Shown here piece after piece: positions 11,367 to 22,337 of a stretch of DNA of 22,337 nucleotides. The stretch lies in the IMG/VR virus record IMGVR_UViG_3300032294_001430, positions 1-22,337 of that record, one strand, 5' to 3'. The DNA comes from a virus. Positions within the stretch are counted from its first letter, which is position 1; every line of letters starts with the position of its first letter. Made by a program: the position numbers and the translations under genes. The notes beneath the pieces are model-generated. The model saw only the letters and a list, made by a program, of their open reading frames with translations, did not search any database and was not told where the DNA came from.

Positions 11367-12338
11367 TTATGAACTGAATAGGGTTGCTTCCTCTTTTCTT
11401 CTTCTAACTAGACCTTCATATAATTTACCAGTAGATGCTCCTCTAGTCGGACCATTTAGTAAACCATTTGCTGCGGCTGCATAATCTTTAGCTCTAATTG
11501 CGGCAGGAATGTTTGGATAATTTGCGAAACTTCCACAATTATAAACAAAGCTTAAACACGCTGCTTTTTGTTTATTATTAAGAGCATCAAACTCAGCTTG
11601 AGATATTTTTGATTTTCCAGTACCTACGAATCTTGCTTTATATGATACAGATACCTCATATTGCAATACTTTTAATGCTGCATCAACTGTTGTTGTATCT
11701 CCATATTTAACATCTCGTATTGTACCAGTTGATGGGTCTAATATTTTATCCGAACCGAATCCTAATCTTGGAGTACCTTCATCATTTAATGCCGCTTTTG
11801 CAAAACCTTCATTTTTAGCAATAAATTTAGCTGCTAGTGTAATCCAATCAGCACTTAAATCTAATGCACCCAAATCTACGTTTATAATACCACCACCACC
11901 AGAAGCAAATCCACCACCACCGCCGCCTGCTCTAAATCCTTGAACAAATGGTTTACCTTGATTCCATTTGAATGCTTCATTTTGTCCAGCGCTTATTCTT
12001 TCAACCGTAGGTCCTGCTAAAAATGCTTCTAATTCTGCATCTATTTCTTCTTCACTAGTTCCATTTTGAATACTTTCTTCTTTAGTTGCCAATACCGATT
12101 CTTGTGGTTCAACATCTTCTTTTGGCTTAAACTCATCTTCGGTTACTATTGTAGTTCTAGTTGCAGGTGAAACGGAATATCCAGTCCAATTTAGTACACC
12201 AATATTTGGAGTTCCTAATGGTGGATATACTGATACAGTATATATCGTACCTTTAACACTATTTAAGTGATTGGTTGCATAAGATATAAACTCATCTACT
12301 ATTAATCCCGTATTATCTGTTGGTTGTATTGCTGACAC
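11367..12338 (-). CDS. Virion-associated muramidase: C-terminal GH24 (T4-type lysozyme) domain
   Basis: A 323-residue protein with a GTG start (GTG TCA GCA, at 12338), 11 nt after the CHAP gene. Residues 1-60 contain a beta-rich segment (TIYTVSVYPPLG, NIGVLNWTGYSV). Residues about 70-100 are acidic. Residues 100-139 are a module almost identical to one in the neighbouring CHAP protein, followed by a Gly hinge (138-150). Residues about 163-323 are a GH24 lysozyme domain: catalytic Glu177 in AKNEGF, Asp186 nine residues later as in T4 lysozyme (E11/D20), RLGFGSD in place of the usual TIGYGH, helix LNNKQKAACLSFVYNCGS, and C-terminal GLVRRRKEEATLF. It probably cuts peptidoglycan glycan strands during tail penetration. 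The position of the catalytic Thr appears to be Arg191, which I believe also occurs in some phage GH24 proteins. Confidence 0.85.
   Translation of the reverse strand: MSAIQPTDNTGLIVDEFISYATNHLNSVKGTIYTVSVYPPLGTPNIGVLNWTGYSVSPATRTTIVTEDEFKPKEDVEPQESVLATKEESIQNGTSEEEIDAELEAFLAGPTVERISAGQNEAFKWNQGKPFVQGFRAGGGGGGFASGGGGIINVDLGALDLSADWITLAAKFIAKNEGFAKAALNDEGTPRLGFGSDKILDPSTGTIRDVKYGDTTTVDAALKVLQYEVSVSYKARFVGTGKSKISQAEFDALNNKQKAACLSFVYNCGSFANYPNIPAAIRAKDYAAAANGLLNGPTRGASTGKLYEGLVRRRKEEATLFSS
11926..12041 (-). repeat. 116-bp direct repeat, copy in the GH24 gene
   Basis: Matches 12906-13021 with 4 mismatches in 116 bp by eye and no gaps; the offset is 980 bp. It encodes DAELEAFLAGPTVERISAGQ and onward to FVQGFRAGG, in the same reading frame in both genes. 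Similarity falls away on both sides: into different Gly codons on one side and Glu/Thr-rich codons on the other. Confidence 0.9.
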
Positions 12339-12349
12339 TTAAATTAATT

Positions 12350-13753
12350 TTATCCTATTATTATATAACCTCTAATTGTTTTTGGATTAGCTACATGTGT
12401 AGTTACTGCTGCTGAATAGTTACCATCGATACCATATACCTTTCCACCATCTACTTTTAAAACCAATCCAATATGGTCCATTCCACCATGGTCATTATTC
12501 ATACTTCCCCATCCATATACAATTGCATCACCAACATTTGGTACATAATTTGGATTTGCTCCATCTACTTTACTAACCCATCTACTATTATCAATAGCCC
12601 ATTTAACCCAAGTTGGAACGTATGCTTTATTCGGATGACCTGATATAACTGCTCCAGCTTCTTGCCACCAAGTAGTAACCGCACATGCACACCAAGCAAA
12701 TCCGGTCCCACCACCTGCTCCGTTTTTTTGCATTTGAACAATTCTAGCATGCCCAGTATCACTTTCTTTGGGAATTTCTCTTACCCCATTAGCTTCATCG
12801 TTTTGTGCAATTAATACTGCTTTTAAACCAAGTGATGCATTTGGCGGAAATGTTGGTGGTGGATATGTTTGATTAAAGCTACCACCAAAACCACCAGGAC
12901 CACCACCTGCTCTAAATCCTTGAACAAATGGTTTACCTTGATTCCATTTAAACCCTTCATTTTGTCCAGCGCTTATTCTTTCAACCGTAGGTCCTGCTAA
13001 AAATGCTTCTAATTCCGCATCCGTTTCTTCTGGAGTTTGTGTTTCTTCTTGAGTTTGTGTTTGAGCTGATGTAGTTGGTTCAGTTGGCGTTTGCGGTGCT
13101 GGTGCAGGTATTGGTGCTGTATTTTGTGGTATATTATCTAATGTACCTAACTTAACTGCATCAGGTGGTATTGTTATTCTATATTCCTCATTTTCAATTA
13201 ATATAGATTCACATTTATTTATTTCATCTTCAAAAGTAGATGCCTCAACAAGTCTATTCTCTACTAATGCTTTAGTATGATTGGTTGTAGCTCTTTCTAA
13301 TTGTTCTTGTACTTCCGCTCTTCTTTCATTACTCAATTCAAAATTTGGTTCTGTATTTACTGATGATTGTGGTTTTTGCCAAACTCCAACATCAGTAATA
13401 AGATTTTGTGTAACTTGTATATTGGCTGTACTACCCGGAGCTGGTTGTAATGGTATTGGTGCAGTTGCCATAACAGCTCCAGCCCAATATGCTTTAACAC
13501 CCTCACCCATTTCACCTACCAAATCATAAGGTTGAGATGCGCTTAGACCTTTTTGTAATGCAGATTTAAAAAATGTTTTCATCATTTCAACATTTCCAGA
13601 AATCAAAGGAAGTGAATGAGCTCTATCAAAACCACGTTTAACTGCAGCATCATACTCCTTTGCATACAATTCAGCAACAACATCGATATCCGAAATTCCT
13701 TCTGGATTATTTGCTACTCTTAGTATATTTTGTTTGAAAGTTTCCCAAGACAT
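12350..13753 (-). CDS. Virion-associated peptidoglycan hydrolase with C-terminal CHAP-like domain
   Basis: A 467-residue protein starting MSWETFKQNILRVANNPEGI, overlapping the preceding stop as TAATG. Residues 1-125 form a helical domain (SDIDVVAELYAKEYDAAVKRG, SGNVEMMKTFF, AYWAGAVMA) that I associate with structural proteins near gp5 in marine T4-like phages. Residues about 140-190 are helical, and 212-243 form a Pro/Thr/Gln linker. Residues 245-283 are the module shared with the GH24 protein, followed by Gly and Pro spacers. Residues about 305-467 are a CHAP/NlpC-P60-type amidase: GVREIPKES, then FAWCACAVTTWWQEAG with probable nucleophile Cys355, PNVGDAIVYGW, MDHIGLVL with His427, and GIDGNYS with Asn445. 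It probably cleaves peptide or amide bonds of the wall, complementing the glycosidase next door. Confidence 0.85.
   Translation of the reverse strand: MSWETFKQNILRVANNPEGISDIDVVAELYAKEYDAAVKRGFDRAHSLPLISGNVEMMKTFFKSALQKGLSASQPYDLVGEMGEGVKAYWAGAVMATAPIPLQPAPGSTANIQVTQNLITDVGVWQKPQSSVNTEPNFELSNERRAEVQEQLERATTNHTKALVENRLVEASTFEDEINKCESILIENEEYRITIPPDAVKLGTLDNIPQNTAPIPAPAPQTPTEPTTSAQTQTQEETQTPEETDAELEAFLAGPTVERISAGQNEGFKWNQGKPFVQGFRAGGGPGGFGGSFNQTYPPPTFPPNASLGLKAVLIAQNDEANGVREIPKESDTGHARIVQMQKNGAGGGTGFAWCACAVTTWWQEAGAVISGHPNKAYVPTWVKWAIDNSRWVSKVDGANPNYVPNVGDAIVYGWGSMNNDHGGMDHIGLVLKVDGGKVYGIDGNYSAAVTTHVANPKTIRGYIIIG
12906..13021 (-). repeat. 116-bp direct repeat, copy in the CHAP gene
   Basis: Partner of 11926-12041. 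Differences are mainly in the codons for NEGFKW (here) versus NEAFKW, plus silent changes. In-frame duplication of a 39-residue linker or docking module. Confidence 0.9.
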
Positions 13754-15983: not shown

Positions 15984-16799
15984 TTAAACTGGGATTACTT
16001 CTATTGTAATCTTAGGTTGATATCCATCAGGTAGTTGTCTATTAATACCTTTGAATTCATTTACTTTGTTCTTAAAGTATGTTATTTGTAATACCTTATC
16101 AGTTAGGTTCATTACAGTTTGAGATGAAGTAGACATCTCTTTTGTATCTCTTTTCATATTCAATTGAGGTTTTTTTGGAAAGTATTCTTTTCTCATAGCT
16201 TGTGCTATTCCTTTCCAATCTTCTACTTTATCAACTGATTTTTCTGCTGATATTTTTCTCAATTTTGAACTTAGATATTTTTCACCATGTGTATATCCCG
16301 CATCGGTAAACATGTGTCCGTGATTTGTACGAACAACGGATGATTCCGAATTTTGAAGTTTAACATCGGGCTTATGCTTTGATGTAGTTTCAATACTAAC
16401 CATGTGTTTTGGAGATGACACAAATGTATGACCTTTTAAAGATAATCCACTCTTACCCTTATATTGTAATGCTGCTCTTACCGCTTTCATTAAGGTAGGT
16501 TGCTTAATGATATTTCTCATCTTATCCCCATCAGGTCCCGGCTTTCCACCTTTCTTTACAATCTTATGTTCGGCTTCATCATGTCCAACTAATAGCGCAG
16601 AATTTACAACACCAATGCCGTTTTCGTTTAATCCTTCACTCCAATCGGTTACTAAATCATGTAGATATGCAACTTCCACACCATCAATGATAGTATGCAC
16701 AATTTCCAAAGATGGATTATAAGCTCTGTCTCTATTTTTGGCTAGGATGAACTTATCATTTATTTCCTTAGATACAATAATGCACTCTGAAAGTTTCAT
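15984..16799 (-). CDS. Ntn-hydrolase, linear amide C-N hydrolase (acyltransferase/choloylglycine hydrolase) type
   Basis: A 271-residue protein. The N-terminus MKLSE-Cys6-IIVSKEINDKFILAKNRDRAY fits the pattern of C45/C59-type Ntn-hydrolases: a Cys that becomes the N-terminal nucleophile after self-cleavage, a short strand pair, then an (A/G)-x-N-x-D motif (Asn22-Arg23-Asp24). Further matches are WSEGLNENGIGVVNSAL (residues 53-69), a strand with HTFVSSPKHMVSIET, and VRTNHGHMF (Thr158-Asn159-His160), where these enzymes usually have a conserved T/N-N. If so, maturation would remove residues 1-5. Such enzymes hydrolyse amides, for example N-acyl amino compounds or beta-lactam side chains; the substrate here is unknown. 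The gene sits 3 nt after a small phage gene and just before the hub operon, so it belongs to the phage's late set. Confidence 0.7.
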   Translation of the reverse strand: MKLSECIIVSKEINDKFILAKNRDRAYNPSLEIVHTIIDGVEVAYLHDLVTDWSEGLNENGIGVVNSALLVGHDEAEHKIVKKGGKPGPDGDKMRNIIKQPTLMKAVRAALQYKGKSGLSLKGHTFVSSPKHMVSIETTSKHKPDVKLQNSESSVVRTNHGHMFTDAGYTHGEKYLSSKLRKISAEKSVDKVEDWKGIAQAMRKEYFPKKPQLNMKRDTKEMSTSSQTVMNLTDKVLQITYFKNKVNEFKGINRQLPDGYQPKITIEVIPV

Positions 16800-18433: not shown

Positions 18434-19891
18434 CTAAAATAACATCTTTGAACCAATTTGGAAGTTATGCATCAAATTAAACTTAGGTTCAAAGGTCATT
18501 GCTCCTCTATATGCGGTTGATAATGCAAATCTTTTACTTATTTTATAATCATATCCCAAACCAACGATTGCACCGGGTGTTCTACTTACTGAACTATTTC
18601 CAGTCATTGTATTCCAAGCTATTGGGGATTGCATTACGAATAATTGTGGAGTTAGAGTAACCTTTCTACTATACTGAAATGGTTTCATCCAAAATCCAAC
18701 TGCGGATGCACTTAGGGATACATCATATCCTCTTTCACCCATTCTAGGCATCATTAAGGTTATGATACCAACATTGTATCCAAATGTTCCGTACTTAGGG
18801 TGTGGCTTAATATAGGTGTACCCATTAAGGTTCATAAGAGTTCCTCTAAGGTACGCAAATGTAGTTCCGTATGAATGTATCGCATTTAATTTACCTTCCT
18901 CAAAATCCATCTTAGTGATACCACCTGATAGTGCGAATTGATTCATAGTACTCCAAATAAGTGCGGTAGCTGAATATGATTTATCACCCATAAGAGATGA
19001 TTTAGAAACACCCACACTCATCATTACTGCATACCTACCTTCCATATCCTCCGTTCCAGCCAAATCAGATGCTAACATCATTGGGTTTGCTACGGATTTC
19101 TTTTTTTCTTCTTTTTTCTTTTCTTCCTTCTTCTCCTCTTTCTTTTCTTCTTTGGTTTCTTCCTTCTTTTCTTCCTGCTTATCTTCCGATTTAGATTCCT
19201 CTTTCTTTTCTTCCGATTTACTTTCAGATTTAGATTCTTCTTTTGATTCGGACTTACTTTCAGATTTAGATTCCGATTTAGTTTCAGATTTTGTTTCTGA
19301 TTTGGTCTCCGTTTTAGTTTCTGTTTTAGATGAAGATGATGAAGATGAACTACTACCAGAACTACTTCCAGAACCTCCAGAAGCACTGCTTCCTGATGAT
19401 GCAGGTGGAGGTGGTGGTGTAGAACCAGCTGATGATGCTGCTGCCCCAGAAGCGGCTCCACTTGCAGCTCCACTAGCGGCTGAACTAGCAGCTCCACTTG
19501 CTGCAGAACTTGCCGCAGATGAAGCGGCTGAACTAGCAGCTGATGCTGCTGCCGAAGCTGCTGCTGATGCAGCCTGTGATGTTGCTTGTGCTACTGCGTT
19601 TGTTACCGTTTGTTGAACAACCTGATTAGTTGGACATCCCATTGTTGACCAAGCGGTATAGGTTGCAGTTATCCAAAGTTGAACTGCTCCCGTCATTACT
19701 TCTTGCGGAGAAAATACTCTTACCTGATTATAAAATGATACCGTTGCAAACCCATTTGCCATTGTGGTTGTTGCAACTTTAATTTCACCGGTACATTTAT
19801 CCCTATATGTTTGGGTATAAGTTTGCCCTATCGCTTCCGTAGCGAATAAAGACATAACAATTATCGTTAAAACCAATACCCATTTTTTCAT
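18434..19891 (-). CDS. Exported protein with Ala/Ser and Lys/Glu low-complexity stalk and outer-membrane-like C-terminal domain
   Basis: The likely start is the ATG at 19891 (485 residues), 1 nt after the preceding stop and giving the signal peptide MKKWVLVLTIIVMSLFATEA. An upstream ATG at 19915 would put MVWVSISK ahead of the signal and overlap the previous gene, so it is less likely. Residues 23-102 form a small domain with two cysteines (Cys33, Cys86). Residues 103-157 are almost only Ala and Ser; a five-proline run follows, then Gly/Ser (about 164-188), then K-x-E/S-x repeats grading into a Lys/Glu-rich block to about 265. Residues 266-485 are strand-rich with aromatic ends (YAVMMSVGVSKSSL, FGYNVGIITLMM, FALSTAYRGAMTF) and end KMLF, like an outer-membrane beta-barrel. 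Ends in TAG. Function unknown; envelope location inferred. Confidence 0.7.
   Translation of the reverse strand: MKKWVLVLTIIVMSLFATEAIGQTYTQTYRDKCTGEIKVATTTMANGFATVSFYNQVRVFSPQEVMTGAVQLWITATYTAWSTMGCPTNQVVQQTVTNAVAQATSQAASAAASAAASAASSAASSAASSAASGAASSAASGAASGAASGAAASSAGSTPPPPPASSGSSASGGSGSSSGSSSSSSSSSKTETKTETKSETKSETKSESKSESKSESKEESKSESKSEEKKEESKSEDKQEEKKEETKEEKKEEKKEEKKKEEKKKSVANPMMLASDLAGTEDMEGRYAVMMSVGVSKSSLMGDKSYSATALIWSTMNQFALSGGITKMDFEEGKLNAIHSYGTTFAYLRGTLMNLNGYTYIKPHPKYGTFGYNVGIITLMMPRMGERGYDVSLSASAVGFWMKPFQYSRKVTLTPQLFVMQSPIAWNTMTGNSSVSRTPGAIVGLGYDYKISKRFALSTAYRGAMTFEPKFNLMHNFQIGSKMLF
19097..19585 (-). repeat. Low-complexity coding repeat region (Ala/Ser, Ser/Gly, Lys/Ser/Glu, Lys/Glu)
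   Basis: About 490 bp of short-period repeats inside the 485-residue exported protein. On the plus strand they are GCAGCT-type tracts near 19430-19580 and CTT/TTC-rich tracts at 19097-19330. They create long spurious open frames on both strands. They encode, in order, an Ala/Ser helix, Pro run, Ser/Gly linker, Lys/Ser/Glu repeats and a Lys/Glu block that could form a single alpha helix. Confidence 0.85.
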
Positions 19892-19892
19892 T

Positions 19893-20723
19893 TTAGAAAT
19901 TGATACCCAAACCAAAAGTGCTATTTTTGACTATTGGGTCATAATCGTACTTTATCGTTAAATTTTTGAAATCATGTAACGCTCCAACTTTAACAGTTGT
20001 AAATCTATCTTTATATTTTGGGAAAGTAATGTATCCAATATCATCCTTACCTCTCCACTTAACATCTTCAGTCACACTACCAACCATAAGGTGAATACCT
20101 GTTCTTTTGATTCTCTTACCAACACCCACATAGAAATTTCTCCTTTCAACCAAATCACTTACCATTGGAAAATCTACTTGTGTTATATTACCATAAGGAA
20201 AGAATGTTGAATTATCTCTTTCGAATGTTGAATTGTATTCAGCTATAAAATATGCTTTGTTTCCCATTGTAAAGAATCCACCAATCTGATTACCGCCTGT
20301 TTTTTGAATACCAAAACTGATAATTGGTTTCTTACCTCTAATAGTATCCATTCTACCATTATCATAAACATACACTCTTGCAGGTTGACGGTATCCCCAA
20401 TCGTTTAAATAAAAGCCAGGGTTCCAAAAGTTCCAACCAAACGCAGGTGCTCCCCACATATCCCAACGATTCCATCCCCAACCCCAATTGTTCCAACCCC
20501 ATGGGTCTCTAACAATTATATTTGAACCCGGTCTTGTTCTCGGAGGTCTATTAAACTCTCTCGGTGATTCGTTTCTCCATCTGCTAACATCGTTTCTTTG
20601 TGAAATAGATGGTGACATTGATGGTGTAGACCTTTGAGGTGTAGGTGGGTTACTTCTCCAACTACTAACTTGTGAGAAAGCTAATGTTGGTATAAACGCT
20701 AGTAAAAATAATAGATTTTTCAT
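19893..20723 (-). CDS. Exported Trp/Pro-rich protein with beta-barrel-like C-terminus
   Basis: A 276-residue protein with signal peptide MKNLLFLLAFIPTLAFSQ, probably cut after Ser17. Residues about 20-70 are Ser/Pro/Arg-rich and unstructured. Residues about 70-110 are extraordinarily Trp/Gly/Asn-rich (DPWGWNNWGWGWNRWDMWG, then FGWNFWNPGF). Residues about 128-276 are beta-rich (ISFGIQKTGGNQIGGFF, NFYVGVGKRIKRTGIHLMVG, NSTFGLGINF) and end in Phe, as outer-membrane proteins usually do. It is the first gene after the terminator at 20753-20779, with a putative promoter at 20738-20752, and the next exported gene follows 1 nt later. Probably an outer-membrane or surface protein made by the phage in the infected cell. 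Family not recognised. Confidence 0.65.
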   Translation of the reverse strand: MKNLLFLLAFIPTLAFSQVSSWRSNPPTPQRSTPSMSPSISQRNDVSRWRNESPREFNRPPRTRPGSNIIVRDPWGWNNWGWGWNRWDMWGAPAFGWNFWNPGFYLNDWGYRQPARVYVYDNGRMDTIRGKKPIISFGIQKTGGNQIGGFFTMGNKAYFIAEYNSTFERDNSTFFPYGNITQVDFPMVSDLVERRNFYVGVGKRIKRTGIHLMVGSVTEDVKWRGKDDIGYITFPKYKDRFTTVKVGALHDFKNLTIKYDYDPIVKNSTFGLGINF

Positions 20724-20737
20724 AGGTATATTATTTA

Positions 20738-20752
20738 GTTACCTATAAATAT
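20738..20752 (-). promoter_or_regulatory. Putative phage promoter for the exported-protein pair
   Basis: The coding strand reads ATATTTATAGGTAAC. The 9-base core is identical to three other block-head elements; the ACATA extension is not kept. The core ends 20 nt before the ATG at 20723 and directly abuts the terminator's T-tract. Confidence 0.4.
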
Positions 20753-20779
20753 AAAAAAAGGGAGAATAAATCTCCCTTT
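20753..20779 (-). terminator. Intrinsic (Rho-independent) terminator after the lipoprotein gene
   Basis: The coding strand has AAAGGGAGA (20779-20771), a 5-nt TTTAT loop, the perfect complement TCTCCCTTT (20765-20757), then continuing T's to 20753: a 9-bp stem and a run of 7 T's counting those in the stem. It starts 4 nt past the lipoprotein stop and closes the TonB-receptor/lipoprotein cassette. Confidence 0.85.
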
Positions 20780-20783
20780 CATT

Positions 20784-21980
20784 TTAATTTCCTTTTGATG
20801 GGAATCTAGTCCATCCATTTACCCATATTGGTTTATCTAATTCGGGTATTACCACATCTATCTCTTTATTACCTTTACCTAACGCTAAAGTTTTAAGTTG
20901 GTCATTTGTTAAGATTGTAGTTGCTCTACTGATAAAGTTCAATGTAGGATTAAATGTTCCTACTGAATTGTTTTCAAATACCGAAACTCCATCTTTTACG
21001 AATTGTGCAGTTTCATTACTTTCCAAACTCAATCCACCTTTCATCCATCCCCAAATTACACTATTCTTCATTGTGAATTGTGTTGCTCTCCTAAATCTTA
21101 AACCTAAATTGTGGTTTGCCAATGCAGTTGATACATTAGGTCCAACTAAAATCATATTCAATAATTTAGGATGTGTATATGGTTGTGCCGGTGAACCTGT
21201 TCCATCGTTATCACACTCAACACCATTTCCAGCATCTCCGTTATCTACGAATTGTGGGTCTCTCTTTGATACACCATTTGTAATAGTTCCGGTATATCCA
21301 AAATCAAAATCAAAATCATCATCTGCGGTTGCGAATGCATATAAGTTTTTAGCATTTACAGTTCCACCAAAGAATTCAAATGCATCATCGTTAGCGTAGA
21401 TAGTTTGAACATTCTCAATGATTGTTCCACTGCCAACACCACCCAATGTTAATGCGTTGATTTCCGAATTTGGCATTGCTGCAATTCCAGCGTATTCAAT
21501 CCTTACATATTTTAGAACACCACTATTATCTAAATCGTTTGTTCCACCATAAGGTCTACCAATACCACCTTCAATAGTTGGTTCTGATGTTCTATTGGTT
21601 TTTGCTCTACCCAATATTACAATACCACCCCAATCACCTGGAGTTCTTTCTCCTGCTGGTCTGCCTGAAGTGAATATGATTGGTTTTGTTGCAGTTCCTT
21701 CGGCAATTATTTGTGCACCTCTTTCGATACACAATGCACCTTTCTCACTAATATCAGATTTGATAATAGTTCCAGGTTGAATGATAAGTTTAGCACCATC
21801 GGTTACATAAACATATCCTTTCAATGTCCACACCTTATCTGATGTAAGAGTTGTGGTTGTGTTGATGTTTCCAGTTAATGTTGTTGTTAATGGAATGTTT
21901 ATAGGTGCATCATTTCCACCTAATTCTTTTTGGCAACTGAATAGTCCCAAAATTAAAATAAGTCCTAATAGTTTTCTCAT
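20784..21980 (-). CDS. Beta-helix surface lipoprotein of the type paired with TonB-dependent receptors in Bacteroidota
   Basis: A 398-residue lipoprotein: signal MRKLLGLILILGLFS with lipobox Cys16 (L-F-S-C), then QKELGGND. The Q-K-E after the Cys resembles the Bacteroidota lipoprotein surface-export signal (QKDDE-like, described in Capnocytophaga), so exposure on the cell surface is likely. Residues about 50-320 show right-handed beta-helix repeats (GAKLIIQPGTIIKSD, GAQIIAEGTATKPIIFTS, GDWGGIVILGRA, ALTLGGVGSGTIIENVQTIY) with an acidic ADDDFDFDFGY loop at 219-229 that could bind Ca2+. The C-terminus ends PIWVNGWTRFPSKGN with no T9SS sorting domain. Homologues are common chromosomal proteins of Bacteroidota, often annotated as hypothetical or multidrug-transporter-like. 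The start overlaps the receptor stop (ATGA), so the two are translationally coupled. Function unknown; probably nutrient capture with the receptor. Confidence 0.75.
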   Translation of the reverse strand: MRKLLGLILILGLFSCQKELGGNDAPINIPLTTTLTGNINTTTTLTSDKVWTLKGYVYVTDGAKLIIQPGTIIKSDISEKGALCIERGAQIIAEGTATKPIIFTSGRPAGERTPGDWGGIVILGRAKTNRTSEPTIEGGIGRPYGGTNDLDNSGVLKYVRIEYAGIAAMPNSEINALTLGGVGSGTIIENVQTIYANDDAFEFFGGTVNAKNLYAFATADDDFDFDFGYTGTITNGVSKRDPQFVDNGDAGNGVECDNDGTGSPAQPYTHPKLLNMILVGPNVSTALANHNLGLRFRRATQFTMKNSVIWGWMKGGLSLESNETAQFVKDGVSVFENNSVGTFNPTLNFISRATTILTNDQLKTLALGKGNKEIDVVIPELDKPIWVNGWTRFPSKGN

Positions 21981-22337
21981 AATGTTAAATTTAATGTTAG
22001 TGAAATTGTTTGTTCGTTGTTTATTCTTATTAGATTTCGGTTTTGTAACTTTTGATAATAGATTGATGATTGGCCAAATACATCACCTATTGCCAATTTT
22101 ATTTCCCCATTTTTGAGTTTATGTAAATAGGTTATATCCAATACATCTCTGCTGTTTTCAAAGATGTCTGGGTAACCTTGAAATCCTACTGCTGAGATTC
22201 TATCTCCTACTCTATTGTAAGTTATATTAAGTGTTTCATTTTTATTATGTATGTTTACACCACCATTCAATACATAATTTGATTGTCCCTGCAATTTTCT
22301 TTTTATTCCGTTTACATTTACTTCGGAATTAATTACC
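21977..22337 (-). CDS. TonB-dependent outer-membrane receptor, C-terminal barrel strands (partial)
   Basis: The frame is open to the right edge (about 119 codons), so the 5' part is missing; a TTG at 22294 is internal. The visible segment matches the last beta-strands of Bacteroidota TonB-dependent receptors: KLQGQSNYVLNGGVNIHNKN, NITYNRVGDRISAVGFQGYP, DIFENSRDVLDITYLHKL, GEIKLAIGDVFGQSSIYYQ, ending ISLTLNLTL. The pattern of GQS-x-Y-x-x-N-x-G, NRVGxRI and a P-D-I-x-E turn is characteristic. Such receptors are 22-strand barrels that import metal chelates, glycans or other nutrients using TonB energy, and many phages use them as entry receptors. The gene ends in TGA inside the ATGA shared with the lipoprotein start. 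Confidence 0.85.
   Translation of the reverse strand, partial: VINSEVNVNGIKRKLQGQSNYVLNGGVNIHNKNETLNITYNRVGDRISAVGFQGYPDIFENSRDVLDITYLHKLKNGEIKLAIGDVFGQSSIYYQKLQNRNLIRINNEQTISLTLNLTL

Follow-up and report, generated by a model that had tools for sequence, protein, structure and literature searches.

A mobile phage cassette of a TonB-dependent receptor and a surface lipoprotein with a putative role in phosphorus acquisition

What does a gene pair of bacterial nutrient-uptake type do at the end of a phage contig, and does it belong to the phage at all? The question is raised by a virus record from IMG/VR, 22,337 bases long, which in its full length is called the window here. The sequence-only reading had described a TonB-dependent receptor (TBDR) gene and a surface lipoprotein gene, coupled by an ATGA overlap and followed by their own terminator, and all of these elements are present. 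The lipoprotein gene (20784-21980, minus strand) begins with ATG and encodes 398 amino acids, and its N-terminus, MRKLLGLILILGLFSC, contains the lipobox LFSC with Cys16. Of the receptor, the C-terminal 119 amino acids are encoded by an open reading frame that is cut by the contig end (21977-22336, minus strand). The TGA stop of the receptor and the ATG start of the lipoprotein share four nucleotides (21977-21980, minus strand), and the identical overlap occurs in every viral locus kept for analysis (80 of 137 relatives) in which both genes are visible. The cassette is closed by an intrinsic terminator (20780-20756, minus strand), a hairpin with a T run (GAAAGGGAGATTTATTCTCCCTTTT, then TTTATATTTA); this terminator-like hairpin was recovered in two separate scans. 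The distance to the exported genes on the same strand was correctly given as 60 nt: the gap (20724-20783) has exactly this length and is followed by the gene at 19893-20723.

The position of the pair at the contig end, together with the bacterial nature of its homologues, could indicate a chimeric assembly or DNA of the host. However, when viral contigs were searched with the lipoprotein, 137 IMG/VR stretches that encode relatives were retrieved, of which 80 were kept (approximately 74-98% identical), on contigs of up to 326 kb. Relatives lie in the interior of phage contigs of 133-326 kb, which carry terminases of two unrelated lineages. The gene order of the window, i.e., receptor, lipoprotein, two exported proteins, then the cluster-25 gene and tail genes, is repeated in, among others, L003, L004, L025, and L026; it is also present, interrupted by one insertion, in L049. 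In the latter, a 133-kb contig, the pair has PhoH on one side and the terminase on the other, so that in this and similar relatives the DNA to the right of the pair is phage DNA rather than a continuing bacterial chromosome, which the sequence-only reading had named as an outcome that would speak against it. A chimeric join near position 20750, the other such outcome, is contradicted by the recurrence of this junction in the independent contigs L002, L004, and L026 with 85-92% DNA identity. Moreover, the lipoproteins from viral contigs form one clade apart from the bacterial sequences (SH-aLRT 99). A chimera or host junction was therefore rejected and is considered extremely improbable; judging from the shared neighbourhoods, the pair is phage-borne, with no host junction. 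Among annotated phage records, the pair was found in no isolate; the only matches were an uncultured phage of 635 kb and faecal fragments without annotation, and a plasmid search returned only distant relatives of the lipoprotein.

The surroundings of the pair point to mobility. In L005 and L016, it is located inside the tail block, where it separates two genes that are adjacent to each other in the window, a tail gene of the lysozyme type and a gene of the baseplate region. Compared to these two phages, the pair of the window has 86-90% DNA identity, whereas the shared tail genes mostly have 71-79%, and the identity stops just beyond the terminator, at about position 20751 of the window. Another phage group, whose terminases are only 24-35% identical to those of the others, carries the pair in different surroundings, and still its lipoproteins are 77-89% identical to that of the window. 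Insertion sites thus differ even among related phages, and the pair is, as far as these comparisons go, a mobile cassette that travels as a unit. A terminator follows the lipoprotein gene in 40 of 80 viral loci, compared to 60 of 946 other genes; the cassette has its own promoter and terminator and varies in position, with some phages lacking the promoter box described below or the terminator. Estimates of dN/dS (0.06-0.11 for the lipoprotein, 0.09-0.13 for the receptor) indicate strong purifying selection on both.

TonB-dependent receptors often serve phages as receptors. A spread among unrelated phages would also suit a gene for superinfection exclusion or receptor remodelling, in which the receptor and lipoprotein of the phage replace or mask a host surface protein that is used by this phage or its rivals. 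For such a role, a nutrient-type promoter would be unnecessary, and the unit keeps the partner, the order, and the promoter logic of a bacterial uptake pair, with strong purifying selection acting on both genes. Receptor masking had been among the options of the sequence-only reading; no positive evidence for it emerged from this analysis, and we regard exclusion as quite improbable.

The bacterial counterparts are likewise receptor-lipoprotein pairs, which favours the earlier option of a captured host operon. The closest counterpart is found in Aquirufa (72%/62% identity), and the family occurs in 259 of 396 sampled genomes of Bacteroidota. From this kinship, Bacteroidota are the presumable hosts of the phages. 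In a tree of 93 lipoproteins, Aquirufa antheringensis (Bacteroidota) is the sister of the clade from viral contigs. The comparison of the receptor phylogeny with candidate hosts, which had been proposed as a check, gave a mixed picture: Aquirufa is sister to the phages in the lipoprotein tree but is placed among them in the receptor tree, so that the last transfer could have run in either direction. A distant receptor-lipoprotein pair is present in an uncultured phage of 634,780 bp (L196, LR745206.1; lipoprotein reading frame 19755-21050). Its lipoprotein does not belong to the main phage clade; the branch is long and its placement uncertain, and this position suggests a second, possibly independent acquisition.

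The receptor fragment of the window, with 119 amino acids, is too short for a Pfam match and has a weak TBDR match in NCBIfam (E=0.029). Its full-length relatives comprise 750-828 amino acids with a PF07715 Plug domain and a PF14905 barrel, and occur in two forms, one of about 825 amino acids with PF13715, PF07715, and PF14905, and one of about 750 amino acids without PF13715. Plug, CarboxypepD-reg-like, and OMP_b-brl_3 domains are present in the receptors of L004, L005, and Aquirufa, while the window covers the C-terminus only. For the lipoprotein, searches of Pfam (E <= 0.1), PHROG, and NCBIfam assigned no family, and a PDB sequence search gave no match. An AlphaFold2 model (pLDDT 89.8) is a right-handed parallel beta-helix, with weak fold matches (none at E <= 0.001) to pectate lyases, epimerases, and tailspikes, and we consider the lipoprotein to be a surface protein of a predicted beta-helix fold of the pectin-lyase type. 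The adjacent genes for a TonB-dependent receptor and a surface lipoprotein resemble SusCD, the glycan uptake system of Bacteroidota, but the predicted beta-helix lipoprotein contains no SusD-family domain (PF07980/PF14322) at E <= 0.1. The description as a "classic" nutrient-uptake pair therefore has to be refined with regard to the lipoprotein, which has neither a Pfam match nor SusD character.

Which nutrient might be taken up is indicated by the bacterial loci, which keep the order receptor, then lipoprotein. In Aquirufa, these two genes are followed by a metallophosphatase and PHO4. Within 10 kb of the pair, PHO4 is found in 15 of the 48 bacterial loci of at least 20 kb, although the genomes checked hold only 1-2 PHO4 genes, and any of PHO4, PhoU_div, PhoB-like, or PhoR-like genes in 22 of 48; more than half of these larger loci have no phosphate gene within this distance. 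The best NCBIfam model for a neighbouring response regulator is PhoB; for the neighbouring kinase, PnpS, WalK, and PhoR score best, though none of them reaches the cut-off. Further neighbours include PHO4 transporters, PhoU_div, and a weak match to Porin_O_P. The bacterial counterpart family thus often appears to be genomically linked to phosphate genes.

Characterized systems with a similar organization point in the same direction. In Flavobacterium johnsoniae, the TBDT Fjoh_0545 and the lipoprotein Fjoh_0546 (FII) belong to PUSIV; their genes are part of the phoBR operon, and Pi depletion induces them strongly (PMC8115612). As in the phage cassette, a receptor with PF07715, PF13715, and PF14905 is followed by a lipoprotein of the pectin-lyase-type fold, and the bacterial counterparts of the phage pair are also located near PhoB/PhoR-like genes; in contrast, the F. 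johnsoniae pair is chromosomal, and the phage receptor has an additional short form without PF13715. In Caulobacter crescentus, the lipoprotein ElpS (Cc0170) is made under phosphate starvation and is encoded beside the TBDR Cc0171 (PMC2996285). Overproduction of ElpS raises extracellular phosphatase activity, while ElpS itself apparently is no phosphatase (PMC2996285). Here, too, a surface lipoprotein gene adjoins a TonB-dependent receptor gene, but ElpS is alphaproteobacterial and released via a route that depends on type II secretion. The likeness to Fjoh_0546 and ElpS is one of domain, fold class, gene order, and neighbourhood, not of alignment.

Since the window holds only the last 119 amino acids of the receptor, the promoter of its own phage lies outside it, and the promoter data come from relatives. 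Upstream of phage receptors, repeats such as TTAACAATTTCTTAACA occur with a period of 11 bp. The pattern TAAY-N7-TAAY is present in 29 of 39 non-redundant phage receptor upstream regions, compared to 14 of 321 controls, i.e., other phage genes with an upstream gap of at least 60 nt (Fisher 7e-24, although p-values overstate independence here, because the phage promoters share ancestry); in shuffled sequences, it was found in 65 of 975. A matrix trained only on bacterial receptor promoters separates the phage receptor promoters from controls. In the bacterial promoters, the repeat spacing peaks at 11, 22, 33, and 44 bp, and a -7-like element (TAnnTTTG in bacteria, TAnTTAT in phages) is located 3 mod 11 bp from the last repeat in 26 of 26 bacterial and 22 of 25 phage promoters. 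Bacterial promoters have 3, 14, or 25 bp between the last repeat and this element, phage promoters mostly 25 or 36 bp. Most of the relatives' cassettes are preceded by a host-type promoter, while about a quarter of the phage promoters lack the box. In five loci without the repeat box (L043, L044, L057, L058, and L062), the receptor gene starts 27-28 nt after another gene, so that the pair is apparently transcribed as part of a phage operon. As for promoters of other kinds, the T4-type late promoter TATAAATA occurs in 11 copies compared to 6.4 expected, with the copy in the 60-nt gap on the wrong strand, and was therefore set aside, and a sigma-70 scan gave no excess over shuffles.

PhoB-family regulators bind direct repeats of one helical turn. 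In bacteria, the box precedes 15 of 21 PhoB-like regulator genes and 12 of 15 Porin_O_P genes, compared to a background of 79 of 470; it is not enriched upstream of pstS (1/16), PhoU_div (2/21), or phoA (2/24) against the same background, nor upstream of phoX. The box therefore marks a regulon of the host to which a phoB-like gene belongs. Its rarity upstream of pstS, PhoU_div, and phoA, however, counts against a general Pho-box identity, for which it is no more than a candidate. Its presence in bacterial loci at Porin_O_P-like and PhoB-like genes, and not at pstS or most phoA genes, hints that these bacteria use more than a single box or regulator for phosphate control. The same distribution could be explained if the cassette served another nutrient, such as a metal complex, a vitamin, or a glycan, under a different regulator of the OmpR/PhoB family; the substrate is so far assigned indirectly, and the fold of the lipoprotein resembles carbohydrate-active enzymes. 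However, the bacterial pair repeatedly has phosphate genes as neighbours, with Aquirufa as the clearest case, the box is likewise present upstream of the PhoB-like regulator, and relatives with the same domains respond to limitation of Pi, not of N or Fe, in F. johnsoniae (PMC8115612). Another nutrient is, in our view, unlikely.

The best explanation is that the cassette is a phage moron, i.e., an auxiliary metabolic cassette, for phosphorus acquisition under host PhoB-type control, to which we assign a probability of roughly 0.7. The sequences show a phage-borne, mobile unit that is under purifying selection, is preceded by a host-type promoter in most relatives, and is homologous to a bacterial pair with phosphate genes as frequent neighbours; from these features, we infer that PhoB is the regulator, that the substrate class is phosphorus, and that the phage benefits. 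The suggestion that the pair could reshape host nutrient uptake is thereby supported and narrowed to phosphorus. When a phage infects a phosphate-starved host of the Bacteroidota, the host's PhoB-family regulator would bind the 11-bp direct repeats upstream of the phage copy and turn on the TonB-dependent outer-membrane transporter together with its surface lipoprotein partner. The lipoprotein might capture a phosphorus-containing substrate at the cell surface, or help to release it, and the transporter would import this substrate with energy provided by TonB. The imported phosphorus could then supply the synthesis of viral DNA at a time of declining host transcripts.

In cyanophages, genes for phosphorus acquisition that are controlled by the host have been well studied. 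There, control of the phage gene pstS by the host PhoBR has been demonstrated experimentally (PMC10976474 and works cited there). The Pho box of cyanobacteria, PyTTAAPyPyT/A, resembles the phage box, although predicted Pho boxes in phages are not reliable unless binding is assayed (PMC10976474). Both cases combine a phage-borne phosphorus gene with a host-type box of TTAA-like repeats; they differ in that pstS encodes a periplasmic binding protein and the host belongs to another phylum, and in that PhoB control of the present cassette is only inferred. If correct, the moron reading would extend the phosphorus strategy of cyanophages to Bacteroidota phages, which would rely on machinery of a very different kind, a TonB-dependent transporter of the outer membrane with a surface lipoprotein. 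In the open-access literature on phages, TBDRs, and auxiliary genes, no description of such a cassette was found. Slightly favoured over its negation is the broader proposal that a mobile outer-membrane cassette for phosphorus import, controlled by host PhoB, is widely shared by unrelated large phages of Bacteroidota, with the exact helical phasing of the host kept and the distance varied by whole repeats; active transport across the outer membrane would then serve phages as an auxiliary metabolic unit. As the cassette is conserved and its promoter readable, both the substrate of the pair and the hijacking of PhoB-type control by phages in Bacteroidota become testable.

Of the genes near the pair in L049, the ten upstream gave one clear match in PHROGs, an esterase/lipase. 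The two exported proteins next to the cassette in the window (18434-19915 and 19893-20723, minus strand), the first of which has a long Ala/Ser-rich and then a Lys/Glu-rich stretch, gave no useful family match; in many of the viral loci, they are again found next to the pair (clusters 2 and 14). A 271-amino-acid protein (15984-16799, minus strand) without a match in Pfam, PHROG, or NCBIfam is conserved in sequence and position among phages of the window type (cluster 28). Finally, adjacent genes at 11367-12338 and 12350-13753 (minus strand) encode proteins with a lysozyme and a CHAP domain, respectively. Ahead of the catalytic domain, both contain a nearly identical stretch, DAELEAFLAGPTVERISAGQNE.FKWNQGKPFVQGFRAGGG, as though the same attachment module were present in two different lysins.
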